From positions 1 through 64,000 of the forward strand of contig NZ_OY284437.1 of NCBI RefSeq assembly GCF_958304185.1: a DNA stretch of 64,000 bases, given 5' to 3'. Position 1 is the first letter of the stretch; each line of letters opens with the position of its first letter. The notes below the pieces were generated by a model that was not told the DNA's origin, searched no databases, and saw nothing but the letters and a program-made list of their open reading frames with translations. Source of the DNA: an uncultured Erythrobacter sp. (lineage in GTDB: Bacteria > Pseudomonadota > Alphaproteobacteria > Sphingomonadales > Sphingomonadaceae). Shown here in pieces: positions 51,334-64,000 of this stretch. A program made the translations under genes and the position numbers.

Positions 51334-51343
51334 ACCCAACCTC

Positions 51344-51435
51344 CGTCACCCTGAACTTGTTTCAGGGTCCATCCCTCCACCTGCTCGGTCCGTTCTGTGA
51401 CGCGCGATGGATGCTGAAACGAGTTCAGCATGACG
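51344..51435. repeat. Palindromic element with CGTCA/TGACG ends (type B, copy 2)
   Basis: 92 bp, same layout as the copy at 45064-45154, starting 11 bp after the KstD-like gene stop and lying before a convergent gene end. Possible two-way terminator. Confidence 0.85.
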
Positions 51436-51452
51436 AGTGTGGTTTGGGTGAA

Positions 51453-57674: not shown

Positions 57675-58039
57675 GCGCCGTCTGCGCCGCTCTGGCGAGC
57701 GATCCGGTGCTGGCAGCCCACTATGCCGATTTCCGCGCGAAAGCCGAAGGCGCGCTCGACCCCGCGCTGGTGGCGCTGGTTCGGCAGGCGGTGGCGCAGG
57801 TGCACGGTATCGACAGCGCGCCGATTGACGAGAGCGCGCTCGACCCCGCAACCCGCGCGGCCATCGCCTATGCGCGGCGGATGCCGTTCGAGCATACCGC
57901 GATCACCGACGCCGAAGCCGCCGCAATGGTCGCGCATCTGGGCGAGCCGGGGTTTGTCGCCTTCTCGGTGGTGACAGCGCTGGCGGACGCGGAATGCCGC
58001 GCGGAGTTGGTGGGTCTGCCGGAGTTGGCGGGGGGTTGA
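57671..58039 (+). CDS. Degenerate AhpD-fold paralogue without CxxC
   Basis: A 122-residue helical protein. The segment Val-Arg-Gln-Ala-Val-Ala-Gln-Val-His-Gly (37-46) aligns by eye with the helix that precedes the CxxC of AhpD proteins, but Cys-x-x-Cys is absent (Ile-Asp-Ser-Ala). Start overlaps the active-site-bearing neighbour as ATGA, so the two may form a hetero-oligomer. The family link is tentative. Confidence 0.65.
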   Translation: MSAVCAALASDPVLAAHYADFRAKAEGALDPALVALVRQAVAQVHGIDSAPIDESALDPATRAAIAYARRMPFEHTAITDAEAAAMVAHLGEPGFVAFSVVTALADAECRAELVGLPELAGG

Positions 58040-58047
58040 TTCCATCC

Positions 58048-58130
58048 TCCCCACCCCGGGCTAGACCCGGGGCCCAGCTGTCTTCCGGCGGCCGAGGAAG
58101 CGGGGCCCCGGGTCAAGCCCGGGGTGGGGA
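58048..58130. repeat. GC-rich inverted repeat (type A, copy 2) between convergent genes
   Basis: Arms CCCACCCCGGGCTAGACC and its near-complement flank a 23-nt centre. It fills the gap between convergent stops at 58039 and 58131, just as copy 1 does at 19646-19744. Confidence 0.85.
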
Positions 58131-58655
58131 TTAGCTTAGCTCCCGCAGCAAATCCGTTCCATCCCACCCTTTCGCCGCCTCAGCCACGAAATCGTAGAAC
58201 CCCGTCAGCTGCGCGGTCGGCTCATACAATTCCAGCATATGCCCCAGGCTCGCGCGGGTATCGACGAAGGCAAATGCGGTGCCCGTCTGCGTCACCGAGA
58301 GCTGTGCCAGCGGCACGCCCTCGGCGGCGAACCGCGCGATCTCGGCCTCAAGGTCATCCACGAACAGCGCCGCGTGATGCAGCCCCTCTTTGCCCGATCC
58401 CCACGGAAACATATCGTGCAGCGCGCTGGGATCAGGATTGTGCTGCACCACCAGCTCCACCATCACGCTGCCCCATTGGCCATAGGCGCTCGAGTGGTCG
58501 AACGGCCGCTCCACCCCGCGATGCTGCGAGGAGGCGAGCACCACGTTCCTTAGCACGAAGAATGGCCCCGAGCCGAACTGCCGGTGATGCGCCGCCGCTG
58601 CCGCTTCAAGGTCGTTGACCTTGTAGGCCAGCTGGCGAACCGGCAACCCGGTCAA
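58131..58655 (-). CDS. VOC-family protein with TTG start
   Basis: A 174-residue protein similar in layout to the VOC protein at 19753-20289 (Gly-Ser-Gly-Pro-Phe-Phe-Val, Leu-Val-Val-Gln-His, Gly-Leu-His-His-Ala-Ala, Leu-Glu-Leu-Tyr, C-terminal Gly-Trp-Asp-Gly-Thr-Asp). The best start is TTG 58655, overlapping the ligase stop as TTGA; no ATG lies at the conserved N-terminus. Likely metal ligands His, His and Glu. Coupled to the CoA ligase, so it probably acts on the same substrate. Confidence 0.78.
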   Translation of the reverse strand: MTGLPVRQLAYKVNDLEAAAAAHHRQFGSGPFFVLRNVVLASSQHRGVERPFDHSSAYGQWGSVMVELVVQHNPDPSALHDMFPWGSGKEGLHHAALFVDDLEAEIARFAAEGVPLAQLSVTQTGTAFAFVDTRASLGHMLELYEPTAQLTGFYDFVAEAAKGWDGTDLLRELS

Positions 58656-60244
58656 TTGACCGCCCGGTCCCTGCCCACCCAATAGGGCGCGCGCAGTTCG
58701 CGGCGCAGAATCTTCCCCGAGGGGTTCCGCGGCAGCGCCGGGATGAAATCGACCGTCTTGGGGCACTTGTAACCCGCGATCAGCGTGCGGGCGTGGGCGA
58801 TCAGCTCCGCCTCGCTCAATTCCTCACCCGGCTTCACCACCACGCAGGCCTTCACCGCCTCGCCCCACTTGGGGTCAGGCACGCCGATCACGGCGACGTC
58901 CGCCACCTTGGGATGCGAATAGAGCGCGTTCTCGACCTCGGCGGGATAGACGTTCTCGCCGCCCGAGATGATCATGTCCTTCACCCGGTCGTGGATGTAA
59001 AGGTAGCCGTCCTCGTCCAGATAGCCCGCGTCGCCGGTGCGCAGCCAGCCTTCGGCATCGATGGTCGAGGCGGTGGCGTCCGGGTTGTTCCAGTACCCGC
59101 GCATGTTCTTGGACGAGCGCGTCGCGATTTCGCCGACGGTGCCCACCGGAACCGGGTTGCCCGCTTCGTCGATGATTTTGAGCTCGACACCCGCGAGCGG
59201 CTTGCCCACGCTCCGCATCCGGGGCGAGCCTTCGGGCACGTGATCCTCGGGATCGAGCGCGACGATTGTCCCACTTGTCTCGGTCATCCCGTACATCTGC
59301 ACAAAGCCGCAGCCGATCACCCGCATCGCCTCGCGCATCAGCTCGAGCGGGATCGGAGAGGCGCCGTAGGTGATGTATTTCAAGCGGCTGAAATCGGTCT
59401 CGGACACGCGCGGGTGGTTCAGCAGAATCTGGATCGCGGCGGGCACGAGGAAGATCTTCGAGATGTTGAAATTGGCGATCAGGTCCAATGCCTTGGTCGG
59501 ATCATATTCCGGCAGGACGATGGAATTGGTGCCCGCGACCATCGTGCCGATGCCCGTGCCGGTGCCGCTGATATGGAAACACGGCATGGCGAGCAGCGTG
59601 ACATCGCCCGGGATCGGCTCCTGCCAGCCGCGCATCTCTTCGCCGCTGGCTGTCGCATCGCGGCTGGAGAGGATCGAACCGTGGGTCATCACCGCGCCCT
59701 TGGGCTTGCCGGTGGTGCCCGAGGTATAAAGCTGCAACGCATCGTCTTCGGCGGCTACGCGGTGGGCGGGCGGCGTGGCGGGGAAGCCGTCACGCCAGGT
59801 CCGATAATCGGTGCCTGCGAAGTCCGGCGCGTCGATGCCGATCACCTGTTCGACCCGTGAGCAGTCTGCATGGATGCCGCTGAGCACCTCGGCAAAGCCT
59901 TCGCCGATGAACACCACGCGGGCCTGACAATTATCGAGGATATAGGCGACCTCCGGCGCGGCGAGGCGCCAGTTCACCGGGGTCATCACCGCCCCGATGC
60001 GCGCCGCGCCCAGGAAGGCTTCGAAATAGAGCGGATGGTTCTTGCCGAGGAAGGCCACGCGCTCGCCCGGCTTGACGCCCAGAGCCGCCAGCCCGTTCGC
60101 CGCCCGGTTGGCGCCTTCGTCAAGCTCGGCGAAGCTGATCTCCTCGCCCGCGTAGGTGAAAGCGATAACGTCCCCCTTACCGCGCGCGTGATCACGCACG
60201 ACGTCGCAAAAGGACTCCGCTGCCAATGCTGTGTTCTCTCCCAT
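58652..60244 (-). CDS. AMP-forming acyl-CoA ligase (FadD type)
   Basis: A 530-residue ANL enzyme: Tyr-Thr-Ser-Gly-Thr-Thr-Gly-Lys-Pro-Lys-Gly P-loop, Tyr-Gly-Met-Thr-Glu-Thr-Ser-Gly, Arg-Thr-Gly-Asp-Ala-Gly-Tyr and Asn-Pro-Ser-Gly-Lys-Ile-Leu. It is of the long-chain/aromatic acid type and more typical than the ligase at 17075-18694. ATG 60244 begins the conserved part. Divergent from the thioesterase at 60330, with which it could form an activation and editing pair. Confidence 0.9.
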   Translation of the reverse strand: MGENTALAAESFCDVVRDHARGKGDVIAFTYAGEEISFAELDEGANRAANGLAALGVKPGERVAFLGKNHPLYFEAFLGAARIGAVMTPVNWRLAAPEVAYILDNCQARVVFIGEGFAEVLSGIHADCSRVEQVIGIDAPDFAGTDYRTWRDGFPATPPAHRVAAEDDALQLYTSGTTGKPKGAVMTHGSILSSRDATASGEEMRGWQEPIPGDVTLLAMPCFHISGTGTGIGTMVAGTNSIVLPEYDPTKALDLIANFNISKIFLVPAAIQILLNHPRVSETDFSRLKYITYGASPIPLELMREAMRVIGCGFVQMYGMTETSGTIVALDPEDHVPEGSPRMRSVGKPLAGVELKIIDEAGNPVPVGTVGEIATRSSKNMRGYWNNPDATASTIDAEGWLRTGDAGYLDEDGYLYIHDRVKDMIISGGENVYPAEVENALYSHPKVADVAVIGVPDPKWGEAVKACVVVKPGEELSEAELIAHARTLIAGYKCPKTVDFIPALPRNPSGKILRRELRAPYWVGRDRAVN

Positions 60245-60329
60245 GTTGGCAAGGATAGGCCCTGGCGCTGCGCCTGTCATTGGCACAATTCATAGCGGCG
60301 CGCGCCGCAGGCGGCGTTAGGGTGCGGGG

Positions 60330-60734
60330 ATGGATATTCCTCCGGGCTTTGAACCGGCCGGTTTCACTCCCGGCTTTCTCGACCATGGCGGGCCTTACTA
60401 TCTCGGGCCTGCTTCGGAGGGCGTGAGGGTGGTGGGCCTCAAGATCATGCCGCACCACATCAATTATCAGGACGCGGCGCATGGCGGGGTGATCTCGACC
60501 TTCGCCGATGTGGCGCTGAGCCACGCGGTCTATGATGCCGAGCTGCCCCGGCTGGCGCCTTCGACCGTGACGCTGACGGTGAATTATCTGAGCGGCGCGC
60601 GGCTGGGCGATTGGCTGGAAGCGCGGGTGCGGATCGACCGGCTGGGCGGGCGTACGGCCTATACCTCGGGCGGGATATGGCGCGGCGATGAGCAGATCGC
60701 GACGATGAGCGGGGTGTTTGCGTTTCGGCGGTGA
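60330..60734 (+). CDS. Hotdog-fold thioesterase (PaaI type)
   Basis: A 134-residue thioesterase with the PaaI signature His-Gly-Gly-Val-Ile-Ser-Thr-Phe-Ala-Asp (about 51-60), where Asp is the catalytic acid. It would hydrolyse acyl-CoA to release stalled intermediates. Its last 180 bp (60555-60734) are repeated at 61039-61218 with four substitutions and no indel. The gene itself is complete. Confidence 0.9.
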   Translation: MDIPPGFEPAGFTPGFLDHGGPYYLGPASEGVRVVGLKIMPHHINYQDAAHGGVISTFADVALSHAVYDAELPRLAPSTVTLTVNYLSGARLGDWLEARVRIDRLGGRTAYTSGGIWRGDEQIATMSGVFAFRR

Positions 60735-60742
60735 GAGGGTTG

Positions 60743-60964
60743 CTCGCGGAGATCGCAGAGGAGCAGAGGCCGCGGAGAAGATTACGCGGCATAGCCGCGG
60801 ATTGGTTCGCGCCAAGCCGCAAAGAGGCCAAGATGTTGGATGTCATCGCGGCCATGCGCTCCCTCTTGGCCCCTTGGCGACTTGGCGCGAACCATGATGA
60901 AAGCGCCGCTGCCGCGGCGGGAGTGATACCTCCGCGGCCTCTGCACCTCTGCGATCTCCGCGAG
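60743..60964. mobile_element. 222-bp nested palindromic element (MITE-like, no coding capacity)
   Basis: Outer arms of 35 bp (60743-60777 and 60930-60964) match with one mismatch; inner arms of 30 bp (60803-60832 and 60865-60894) also pair, with a few mismatches. It carries no supported gene. It lies 8 bp after the thioesterase stop, in the intergenic part of the first unit of a tandem duplication; the second unit lacks it. No target-site duplication was obvious. It looks like a miniature mobile element of unknown family. Confidence 0.7.
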
Positions 60965-60977
60965 AAACCCCTTTCTA

Positions 60978-61047
60978 CTACCCCAACCACCGCCTCACGG
61001 CCGCCGTCGAGGGATCGCGTTCGTCGCGATACCCCGCCGCGCCTTCG
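60978..61047 (-). pseudogene. 70-bp fragment of the SnoaL gene 3' end
   Basis: Identical except one base to 61342-61411, the last 70 bp of the SnoaL-fold gene including its stop codon. It has no start and joins directly to a thioesterase fragment at the shared GCGCCTTCG. Remnant of a tandem duplication. Confidence 0.88.
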
Positions 61048-61218
61048 ACTGTGACGCTGACGGTGAATTATCTCAGCGGCGCGCGGCTGGGCGATTGGCT
61101 GGAAGCGCGGGTGCGGATCGACCGGCTGGGCGGGCGTACGGCCTATACCTCGGGCGGGGTATGGCGTGGCGATGAGCAGATCGCGACGATGAGCGGGGTG
61201 TTTGCGTTTCGGCGGTGA
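61039..61218 (+). pseudogene. 180-bp fragment of the thioesterase gene 3' end
   Basis: Copy of 60555-60734 with four substitutions over 180 bp and the same stop codon. It has no start codon of its own or ribosome site and lacks the catalytic motif. Non-functional relic of a tandem duplication. Confidence 0.92.
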
Positions 61219-61232
61219 CGTGTCTCTACCGT

Positions 61233-61323
61233 CGTCATGCTGAACTTGTTTCAGCATCCATTTCTCCGCAGGCGAGGCTGGTGCGGGCGGAGAGATGGAC
61301 CCTGAAACAAGTTCAGGGTGACG
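61233..61323. repeat. Palindromic element with CGTCA/TGACG ends (type B, copy 3, inverted)
   Basis: 91 bp, inverse orientation relative to the copies at 45064 and 51344 (the TGCTGAACTTG hairpin comes first). It lies in the intergenic part of the second unit of the duplication, where the first unit has the 222-bp palindrome. Confidence 0.85.
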
Positions 61324-61341
61324 AAGAATGGGAAAGAGCCC

Positions 61342-61881
61342 CTACCCCAACCACCGCCTCACGGCCGCCGTCGAGGGATCGCGTTCGTCGTGATACCCCG
61401 CCGCGCCTTCGGGTGTGTCGGAGAGGTCGACGCCCTCCACCACCCGGAATTCGCGCCAGTCATACAGGCCTGTGCGCTGGGCAATCCTCCACACACCGCC
61501 CCGCTTTTCGAAACGGTCGACATAGCGCCCCGCCACGATCGCGGAATAGATCACGCCCTTGTCCGGAAACACCGCCGCCAGCGGGTAGCCCGGCGGGACG
61601 GTGTGCATCGCGGTCATGTAGGTTTCCGTGTGGCAGACCGTCTCGCTCTCAAACCCGAACACCGTCTGGCCAAGCTGGTGCTGGGTCGCAAGGCACGGGT
61701 CGATCACCGCGCGCGCCTGTTCCACGAACCCGCGCCAATCGCCCTCGATGGTGCCGAATCGGAAGATCGCGTCCGCATGGAACAGATGCTCCATTATCCC
61801 CCAGCGCCGTCGGTCGATTGCATGGGCATAGGCGGCGAGAATGTCGCGGATGGCTTCGCGGTCGTCGAGGGTTCCGGTCAT
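61342..61881 (-). CDS. SnoaL/NTF2-fold protein
   Basis: A 179-residue protein starting Asp-Asp-Arg-Glu-Ala-Ile-Arg-Asp-Ile-Leu-Ala-Ala-Tyr-Ala-His-Ala-Ile-Asp, with Trp-Arg-Gly-Phe-Val, His-Gln-Leu-Gly-Gln and a typical Trp-Arg-Ile-Ala-Gln-Arg strand. The N-terminal Tyr, His and Asp resemble the scytalone-dehydratase/SnoaL_4 group. Function unknown. Its start overlaps the MDR gene stop by 4 nt, and its last 70 bp were duplicated at 60978-61047. Confidence 0.82.
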   Translation of the reverse strand: MTGTLDDREAIRDILAAYAHAIDRRRWGIMEHLFHADAIFRFGTIEGDWRGFVEQARAVIDPCLATQHQLGQTVFGFESETVCHTETYMTAMHTVPPGYPLAAVFPDKGVIYSAIVAGRYVDRFEKRGGVWRIAQRTGLYDWREFRVVEGVDLSDTPEGAAGYHDERDPSTAAVRRWLG

Positions 61882-62879
61882 GTGTCCAGCTCCACGATCA
61901 CCTTGCCGATATTGCCGCCGGTGAACAGCTTGGCATAGGCGCTGAGGGTGTTTTCCAGCCCCTGCGTCACGTCATAGGGCATGACGAGCGCGCCCGCCTC
62001 AGTCCAGTCGCGCAGGCGACGGGTGAGGGCGGGGCCTTCGTGCATGAAGTCGGGTGAGAAGAACCCCTCGATCCTGAGCCGCCGCATCAGCACCTGATCG
62101 AATTCGCGGGGGCTCGTGCGCCCGCCGCCGGTGTAATCGGCGAGCAAGCCGCACACCGCGATGCGGCCATAGTGGTTCATCCGGGTCAGCACCTGATCGA
62201 GCAGCGCTCCGCCGACATTGTCGAAGTAGATGTCGAAACCGCCCGCTGCGTCGAGCTGCCCGCCCACATCCGCAGCCTTGTAATCGACCGCTCCGGCGAT
62301 CCCCAATTCATCGGTCAGGTAAGCGCACTTCGCAGCGCCGCCCGCAATCCCCCACGCCTCGCAGCCGAGCAGCTTGGCGACCTGCACCGCGAGTATCCCC
62401 GTCGCCCCGGCGGCGGCGGAGACCAGCACCCGGTCGCCCGGCTTGGCTGCGCCGGTCTGTTCAATACCCCATAGTGCGGTCCAGCCGTTCATCCCCAGCG
62501 GGCCGAACCACGCGCGGCGGTCGGTGACTGTGGGGTCGAGCACAATCGCGCCGGACATAACCGCATCGACCGTGCTGATATCCGCCCATTGCCCGAAGGC
62601 GCGCACCAGATCGCCGGGCGCAAAGCCATCGGCGCGGCTTTCGATTACCTCGCCCAGCACCAACCCCGACATCGGGATTCCGAGCGGGAGCGGCGGCTGA
62701 TACCCGTCCTCACGGTCGGTCAGCCACATCCGGGTGCCGGCATCCATCGACAGGTGCGAATTGCGGATGCGGATTTCGCCTGTCCCCAGCGGGGCGAGCG
62801 GCGCCTCGTCCAGCTCCAGCGCGGCGGCGAAATCAGTGCCTTCGGGGCGGCGCGCGATGCGCCAGAAACGGTTCTGCAT
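61878..62879 (-). CDS. Zinc-free MDR reductase, NADP-dependent (third of three)
   Basis: A 333-residue CurA-like reductase: His-Leu-Ser-Met-Asp-Ala-Gly-Thr-Arg-Met-Trp, Ala-Ala-Ala-Gly-Ala-Thr-Gly-Ile, Gly-Gly-Ala-Ala-Lys-Cys and Phe-Asp-Asn-Val-Gly-Gly. No zinc cysteines. It is first in a two-gene operon with the SnoaL protein and divergent from the NmrA gene. Confidence 0.9.
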   Translation of the reverse strand: MQNRFWRIARRPEGTDFAAALELDEAPLAPLGTGEIRIRNSHLSMDAGTRMWLTDREDGYQPPLPLGIPMSGLVLGEVIESRADGFAPGDLVRAFGQWADISTVDAVMSGAIVLDPTVTDRRAWFGPLGMNGWTALWGIEQTGAAKPGDRVLVSAAAGATGILAVQVAKLLGCEAWGIAGGAAKCAYLTDELGIAGAVDYKAADVGGQLDAAGGFDIYFDNVGGALLDQVLTRMNHYGRIAVCGLLADYTGGGRTSPREFDQVLMRRLRIEGFFSPDFMHEGPALTRRLRDWTEAGALVMPYDVTQGLENTLSAYAKLFTGGNIGKVIVELDT

Positions 62880-63024
62880 CCCACCACATTCCGGGCGCTG
62901 CGCCGCTACGGCAACCCCGCCTTTTCGCTAGGGGCCAAACCCGTGCGGCTATCAATTTGGCGCGGTGCGTGAAGGGAGGGCGCTTCCTAGTCTGCCCGTC
63001 AATCATAATACGGGAGAGACACGA

Positions 63025-63972
63025 ATGGCACTTATCACAGTGATCGGCGCAAGCGGCCGGCAAGGCCTGGCGCAGGTGCGTCAGGCGCTTGCCGCCGGGT
63101 ACGATGTGCGCGCCATCTCGCGCCGTCCGGACGCGCTGGAGGGCGCGCCGGTCGAGGGGGTGGAGCGGGTCGAGGTGCGGTCGATGGATCTCTACGACAC
63201 CTCAACCTTCGCCGAAGCGCTCGAAGGCAGCGATTACATCTTCTACACCCACCCGCTGCAAGCCCGCGCGGACCGTGCCTATCTGATCGGCGAGGTCGGC
63301 AAGGCCGCCGCGCATATCGGCGTGAAGCGCGTGGTGTGGAACACTTCGAGCTGGATCCCGGACAAGCCGGGCGATCCCTTCACCTATGGCGAGAACACCA
63401 AGGGCATCAACGCCCTGTGGCGTTCGGGCGCGCCGGGGACGGTGTTCGGTTCGGTGCTGTTCATGGACAATCTGCTGACCAACTGGGCGCGGCCGTTCAT
63501 CGTCAATGAGGGCCGGTATGTGTATCCGCACAACCCCAACCTTCAGGCGAACTGGATCAGCCTTGATGACGTCGCCCGCTTCATGCTGGCGAGCCTCGAG
63601 CGGCCCGACATGGAAGGCGCATGGCTGAATATCGGCGGGCCGGAGCGGCTGGTCGGCAAGCAGGTGACGCAGTGCCTGTCGGAAGCTCTGGGCAAGGAGA
63701 TCACATACGATCCCTGCACCCCGGAAGAATTCGGCCGCTATCTGGTCGAAGCGGCGGGCGACACGATGGCCCCGGAAATGCGCGACCAATTCGCCAAGGG
63801 CATCCAGGCCTTCTACGAATACAACAACGACGCCCCGACCAAGCCCTTCGCGGTCGACATGGACCACGTCTACGAGCGCTTCCCGGAACTGGAAGGCAAG
63901 CTCGAGCCGCTGGGCGAATGGACCAAGCGGCAAGAATGGGGCGAGAGCAACTATCGGCCCGCGTTTGGGTGA
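63025..63972 (+). CDS. NmrA-like NAD(P)-binding protein (atypical SDR)
   Basis: A 315-residue extended SDR of the NmrA/HSCARG group. Gly-Ala-Ser-Gly-Arg-Gln-Gly cofactor loop at residues 8-14, Ser-Arg-Arg-Pro after strand 2 (NADP-type), and Asn-Ile-Gly-Gly-Pro-Glu-Arg in the C-terminal part. No catalytic Tyr-x3-Lys, so it may sense redox state or act as a reductase. ATG 63025 has GGGAGAG upstream; CTAGTCTG (62987-62994) may be its -10 box. Confidence 0.85.
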   Translation: MALITVIGASGRQGLAQVRQALAAGYDVRAISRRPDALEGAPVEGVERVEVRSMDLYDTSTFAEALEGSDYIFYTHPLQARADRAYLIGEVGKAAAHIGVKRVVWNTSSWIPDKPGDPFTYGENTKGINALWRSGAPGTVFGSVLFMDNLLTNWARPFIVNEGRYVYPHNPNLQANWISLDDVARFMLASLERPDMEGAWLNIGGPERLVGKQVTQCLSEALGKEITYDPCTPEEFGRYLVEAAGDTMAPEMRDQFAKGIQAFYEYNNDAPTKPFAVDMDHVYERFPELEGKLEPLGEWTKRQEWGESNYRPAFG

Positions 63973-64000
63973 TGCTTTTGTAGCGGGGGCGCCTCCGCGC

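Follow-up and report, generated by a model that had tools for sequence, protein, structure and literature searches.

A tandem duplication with two unrelated hairpin spacers between convergent thioesterase and SnoaL-like genes of an Erythrobacter genome, probably derived from an exchange between two alleles

Why does a short tandem duplication at the boundary of two convergent genes carry two intergenic spacers that bear no resemblance to each other? The question is raised by a locus in a stretch of 64,000 nt (positions 1 to 64,000 of contig NZ_OY284437.1, hereafter the window) from an uncultured Erythrobacter sp., the genome of which belongs to the Erythrobacter/Porphyrobacter group and is assembled in 5 contigs. 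A thioesterase (TE) gene on the plus strand and a SnoaL-like gene on the minus strand converge here, with one full-length open copy of each, and the region between them comprises the following features together with the genes themselves.

60330..60734, plus strand: intact TE gene, 134 aa, 4HBT family (PF03061, E 7.3e-15; from the ORF list)
60555..60563, no strand: parental junction word in the TE gene
60555..60734, plus strand: last 180 bp of the intact TE gene, repeat copy 1
60735..60977, no strand: spacer A, nested palindrome with the flank CTTTCTA (from the repeat search)
60978..61047, minus strand: orphan 3' end of the SnoaL gene, 70 bp, one substitution
61039..61047, no strand: microhomology junction, GCGCCTTCG
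61039..61218, plus strand: orphan 3' end of the TE gene, 180 bp, copy 2, four substitutions
61219..61341, no strand: spacer B, a pair of CGTC-tagged palindromes inverted relative to each other, with flanks
61342..61881, minus strand: intact SnoaL-like gene, 179 aa (PF13577, E 8.7e-24)
61403..61411, no strand: parental junction word in the SnoaL gene

The initial annotation of this DNA had described a repeated TE end of 180 bp with four substitutions and a repeated SnoaL end of 70 bp with one, and a repeat search recovered both. The TE direct repeat (60555-60734 and 61039-61218, 180 nt) is 98% identical, with the substitutions at 60566, 60590, 60675 and 60683, while the single substitution of the SnoaL direct repeat (60978-61047 and 61342-61411) lies at 61027, and the alignment of the latter extends to 79 nt with additional mismatches past the junction. 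When we scanned for direct repeats with a minimum length of 45, a seed of 15 and a distance of at most 3000, these were the only two families within the 64-kb window. The junction had been placed at a word present in both genes, and GCGCCTTCG is indeed the sole 9-mer that the TE and SnoaL genes have in common on the plus strand. The sequence 5' of this word at the junction is SnoaL and the sequence 3' of it is TE, and such a switch at a shared 9-mer is the pattern left by an illegitimate, microhomology-guided join. Calculated over all position pairs of both genes, at least nine matching bases are found at a random junction with a frequency of 4.6e-5. The proposal that microhomology made the tandem duplication is supported by these results, and the genes contain no longer match than the one used by the join.

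The two spacers are mutually unrelated, as had been noticed from the sequence, A being a nested palindrome and B a different palindrome pair. The outer arms of spacer A (60737-60777 and 60930-60970) enclose the inner arms (60803-60833 and 60864-60894), so that the nested palindrome between the genes stands as described, but its length had been given as 222 bp and the outer arms span 234 bp. The arms of spacer B are located at 61232-61269 and 61287-61324. The predicted folds have energies of -164.3 kcal/mol (z -12.4) for A and -68.5 kcal/mol (z -9.5) for B. By eye, spacer B has CGTC at one end of a 20-40 bp palindrome that is repeated in the genome, and the CGTC tag is absent from spacer A. At least 23 near-full-length copies of B are present elsewhere in the same genome among the places listed; according to a crude home-made ORF caller, the 24 copies including that of the window comprise 13 between tandem genes, 3 between convergent genes, 2 between divergent genes and 6 overlapping an ORF. 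A RAYT gene (Y1 transposase, PF01797) was not found in this genome, and five of the 14 control genomes were positive. Rfam at gathering score gave no match in 58000-64000. A role of A and B as terminators for the convergent genes is not claimed here, since no intrinsic-terminator consensus was found in 60300-61900 and the B copies are mostly between tandem genes. As a separate observation by eye, the nested layout of outer and inner stems seen at 60737-60970 also occurs in three related loci with differing arm sequences (L014, L016 and L091), and comparison of the A spacers of the window and of the relative G047 showed some matching changes in both arms. From the recurring layout and the matching arm changes, it looks as if the hairpin of A itself were maintained.

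We then compared the locus in related genomes. A total of 114 genomes, the own genome included, were searched, of which 104 match some part of the region, and the searches for A and B scored the 6-7 best candidates per genome. The comparison covered 63 distinct related loci with both genes, drawn from the searched genomes, named genomes and further stretches, with identical sequences merged and with 11 loci in which no TE gene was found beside SnoaL left out; spacers were measured in 62 of the 63, the TE gene of L032 being cut by the end of its stretch. The duplication was seen in none of the 62 related loci with a measurable spacer, which are mostly from other species. In 36 of the 63 loci TE and SnoaL overlap by 4 bp and leave no spacer, 10 further loci have a gap of at most 34 bp, and 14 have a spacer of 100-246 bp. 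In two more distant relatives, L073 and L089, the gaps measure 799 and 802 bp and each contain a long open frame, of about 265 codons; the words that these gaps share with the gene ends are at most 11 nt long, a value given without a shuffle control. In L029 and L035 (G086 and G087), the overlapping stops CTAG have grown into short tandem runs, for example TCTAGCCTAGCCTAGC.

The filled slots differ in what they hold. B is present in the orientation of the window in G034 (MAG UBA7686), G038 (TH134), G071 and G008 (E. donghaensis), and inverted in G004, G026 and G032. The slot is A-like in G047 (Porphyrobacter sp. SLTP), G018, G025 and L091, the likeness in G018 and G025 being confined to parts of the outer arms; a C-rich palindrome occupies it in G055 and G045, and another hairpin in G097. 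The comparison with relatives that the initial annotation had called for thus yields the unduplicated locus in both forms, with related species carrying either A alone (TE-A-SnoaL in G047) or B alone (TE-B-SnoaL in G034, G038, G071 and G008). Among the matches listed, spacer A finds its closest counterpart beyond the window in the same slot of G047 (89% over 184 bp), and the other listed matches of at least 80 nt reach at most 79%, some shorter ones being higher, such as 85% over 60 nt. G047 is the only relative with a closely similar A; a core of 85 nt is identical to that of the window and CCTTTCTA adjoins the SnoaL end after A in both, whereas the outer arms in G047 are divergent, with 25 nt missing. 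Outside the window, the four highest-ranking matches of B among those listed fall in the same slot of G034 (98%), G038 (95%), G071 (98%) and G008 (93%), and the best copy at another site among the matches listed, which is in the own genome, reaches 91%. Agreement extends to the bases that separate element and gene, those after the TE stop reading CGTGTCTCTACCG in copy 2 of the window and CATGTCTCTACCG in G034. When we recombined the locus in silico across the TE repeats, the resulting B-form aligned to G034 with 995 of 1068 positions identical and 0 gap columns, and recombination across the SnoaL repeats gave an A-form whose highest-scoring alignment was that to G047, with 1039 identities and 28 gap columns.

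That each spacer is closest to the same slot of relatives, among the matches listed, supports an origin from two alleles. It had been argued earlier that a single ancestral spacer gave rise to both, which would require that one of the two, if not both, was subsequently replaced or filled. Such a step is unneeded given the relatives with a single A or a single B and the matching non-element bases beside the elements, which favour reading A and B as two alleles that the duplication brought together. We therefore consider it probable, from sequence comparison, that the locus is a heteroallelic tandem duplication produced when an A-allele and a B-allele recombined illegitimately in a single exchange. 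Two versions, TE-A-SnoaL and TE-B-SnoaL, would have coexisted in the species or in its recent ancestry. A cell with one version would have taken in DNA of the other; extensive homology in the flank would have allowed the two to pair at one end, and the opposite end would have been joined illegitimately at GCGCCTTCG. The expected product is [full TE]-A-[SnoaL 3' 70 bp]/[TE 3' 180 bp]-B-[full SnoaL], in which each gene would keep one intact copy, both spacers would survive and about 240 bp of gene-end debris would remain. A single event of this kind would account for the junction, for the gene ends that occur twice and for the lack of relation between the spacers, and the puzzle of a single ancestor disappears because there would be two ancestors. 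The species itself is represented by one genome and the carriers of A only and of B only are related species; we infer, rather than observe, the single step, the import of DNA and the coexistence of both alleles in this species. The genome encodes PF03772 (ComEC type) and PF02481 (DprA type), and PF13547 (GTA_TIM) was not found in it. Both flanks of the locus align with relatives, but a donor sharing the lineage would leave no mark of the crossover point.

The divergence of the copies bears on the age of the event. Over 244 compared columns, which exclude the stop codons, the two copies differ from each other at 5, whereas the copy sets of the window differ from the four sisters at 14-28. The TE rows of G042 and G074, which are out of register owing to a different stop position, were left aside. 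The Poisson probability of five or fewer differences is 0.0055 at 14 expected and 0.0028 at 15. In addition, the copies share 2+2 bases that are absent from all four sisters. Both halves thus appear to belong to the own lineage, which disfavours an interspecies donor for one half. Since the copies share own-lineage bases and differ less than species do, the duplication appears to postdate the separation of the species, provided that gene conversion has not renewed the copies. The individual substitutions do not sort with carriers of A or B, which counts against the two-allele account. At the four TE sites, copy 1, which lies beside A, reads CGAC, a combination found in 5 of 27 relatives including the B-bearing G071 and in no bearer of A, and copy 2 reads TCGT, which is found in none of the 27. 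At site 60566, copy 1 agrees with G047, and copy 2 agrees with the B-bearing G034 and also with the A-like G018. The one change in the SnoaL fragment is private (0 of 27 relatives).

We also placed the loci on a tree of 61 rows, from which L032, L073 and L089 were left out. The window, G034, G038, G047 and G018 form a clade (support 100/99) in which A-type and B-type spacers are mixed, and the B carriers G071 and G008 fall outside it. The spacer states require 13 changes on the tree without the row of the window; with this row they require 14, a number as low being reached in 33 of 200 shuffles, so that clustering of spacer states on this tree was not detected. Of 107 sites compared between the B spacers of the window and of G071, just 2 differ, against a divergence of about 15% in the two genes (P 1.6e-5 under one clock for both), which suggests that spacers move between lineages. 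The gene ends beside the spacer of G071 are 80-86% identical to the window clade versus 72-74% to its tree neighbours LE388 and G031; this is suggestive, and only suggestive, of a recombination tract around B in G071, as some other rows are equally near.

Other histories could lead to the same arrangement. A swap of one spacer into an existing duplication is possible: an ordinary tandem duplication with identical spacers would have come first, and one spacer would then have been exchanged by homologous recombination with a strain of the other allele. The spacer exchange between lineages suggested by the B of G071 and the 85-nt core of A identical to G047 are in line with this course, but it costs an additional event, a crossover must fall inside the orphan fragment of 70 bp or 180 bp, and the duplicated intermediate occurs in 0 of the 62 measured loci (mostly other species); we regard it as unlikely. 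If instead the duplication were ancient and already present in the common ancestor, collapse across the TE or the SnoaL repeat would yield the B-form or the A-form of the sisters, which later lost one spacer. The low divergence between the copies relative to that between species, the four shared own-lineage bases and the presence of B outside the clade, in G071 and G008, argue against this, and the account, which survives only if gene conversion acted, seems very improbable to us.

It is hardly credible, in our judgement, that an empty locus was duplicated and that A and B were then inserted independently. The many spacerless loci with overlapping genes (36 of 63) would provide a starting point, but both spacers and their adjoining bases match the same slot of relatives above any other listed copy, the slot is filled in each of the four rows nearest on the tree, and no strain with the duplication plus an empty slot was seen, nor were target-site duplications confined to this genome noticed around A and B. 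A mixture of A- and B-strains sequenced together would give the same picture as the observed one through a chimera formed by assembly or amplification. This explanation is highly improbable for a genome in 5 contigs that is 99.99% complete and 0.05% contaminated. Moreover, an overlap of 9 bp is far below any usual assembly word, and hence a molecule with the junction should have existed.

When we examined three other spacers, a non-random choice in which two hold a B copy and one adjoins the locus, in all three cases one or more of the closest sisters (G034, G018 and G047) had a quite different palindrome. The genomes comparable were four of six for window 51334-51452, six of six for contig 5 at about 212,113-212,234, and six of ten for window 58040-58130. 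The flanks of these spacers are 87-96% identical to those of the sisters; other genomes have the same palindrome, and some relatives have none. Based on these comparisons, spacer exchange looks general in this group. Two of the slots deserve description. The spacer at 51334-51452, between convergent genes, holds an inverted B, and its slot holds other palindromes in G034, G018, G047 and G071; G047 resembles G071 in its palindrome, and the flanks have 87-96% identity. The convergent spacer at 58040-58130 contains a CCCCGGG-type palindrome that is common to G034 and G004 and shortened in G018, whereas G047 and G074 have a CGTCATTGCGAG-type palindrome and G071 has none, 4 of the 10 loci being not comparable.

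A further idea, which we rate as rather improbable, is that spacer switching proceeds through the duplicated form as a semi-stable intermediate. A and B are adjacent here, each flanked by a repeated gene end. Recombination across the TE repeat would give TE-B-SnoaL and recombination across the SnoaL repeat would give TE-A-SnoaL, with the genes intact and without a scar. When we looked for gene-end words as scars of duplication in the 14 filled spacers (100-246 bp), none was above shuffles; in each spacer at least 38 of 100 shuffles, made with a crude two-base-block procedure, reached the observed word. With no scars in these 14 slots, two-spacer intermediates gain no support there, and a clean collapse of the duplication would leave no scar. 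If two-spacer intermediates are a common route of hairpin exchange in the genus, the present genome would have been caught at the halfway stage.

The proposed exchange resembles several known processes. Homology-facilitated illegitimate recombination (HFIR), in which homology anchors the imported DNA and a short match serves for the join, has been reported as the integration of 3-10 bp segments in S. pneumoniae, A. baylyi and P. stutzeri (PMC6382021), and the present locus has a 9-bp microhomology at one junction, within the 3-10 bp that characterize HFIR. The difference is that the import here would be an allele of the same locus and would result in a tandem duplication with two spacers. HFIR has also been proposed as the origin of the arrays of orphan T6SS immunity genes in Vibrio cholerae, where a new module stands beside the old one and the old partner is retained as an orphan (PMC5361080); the kept and added parts of the arrays described there are coding, whereas those of the present locus are non-coding hairpin spacers, with gene 3' ends as the debris. 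Intergenic region switching is established, and this process, together with horizontal regulatory transfer, gives related genomes non-homologous spacers at one and the same gene pair (PMC5890482), as we found among the 63 loci; however, switching replaces one spacer, while both spacers share one chromosome here. In S. pneumoniae, genetic exchange by transformation leaves two copies of a region in merodiploids, but the duplications reported there range from 107 kb to >900 kb (PMC3784515) and the present one is 484 bp. As to the elements, each arm of B has CGTC followed by a short palindrome, the pair being inverted, as in CGTC-tagged REPs (PMC3733652), and by eye several of the spacer elements of the group have the form of CGTC plus palindrome described in that paper. 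Erythrobacter is not named in its main text, and spacer A has no tag.

Among the titles and opening lines of abstracts in short lists from searches of the open-licence literature, not aimed exactly at this arrangement, there was no description of a two-spacer duplication. The kinds of event, HFIR and intergenic-region switching, are already known, and what would be new is an allele exchange that kept both spacers. The locus looks like a clean natural fossil of the two processes together. Illegitimate joining and spacer switching are usually inferred separately, and here one junction appears to preserve both parents, and the order of events can be read because each parental spacer is still present in relatives. 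A genus in which hairpins in the same slot differ in kind between sisters is also convenient for studying non-coding swaps that spare the adjoining genes.
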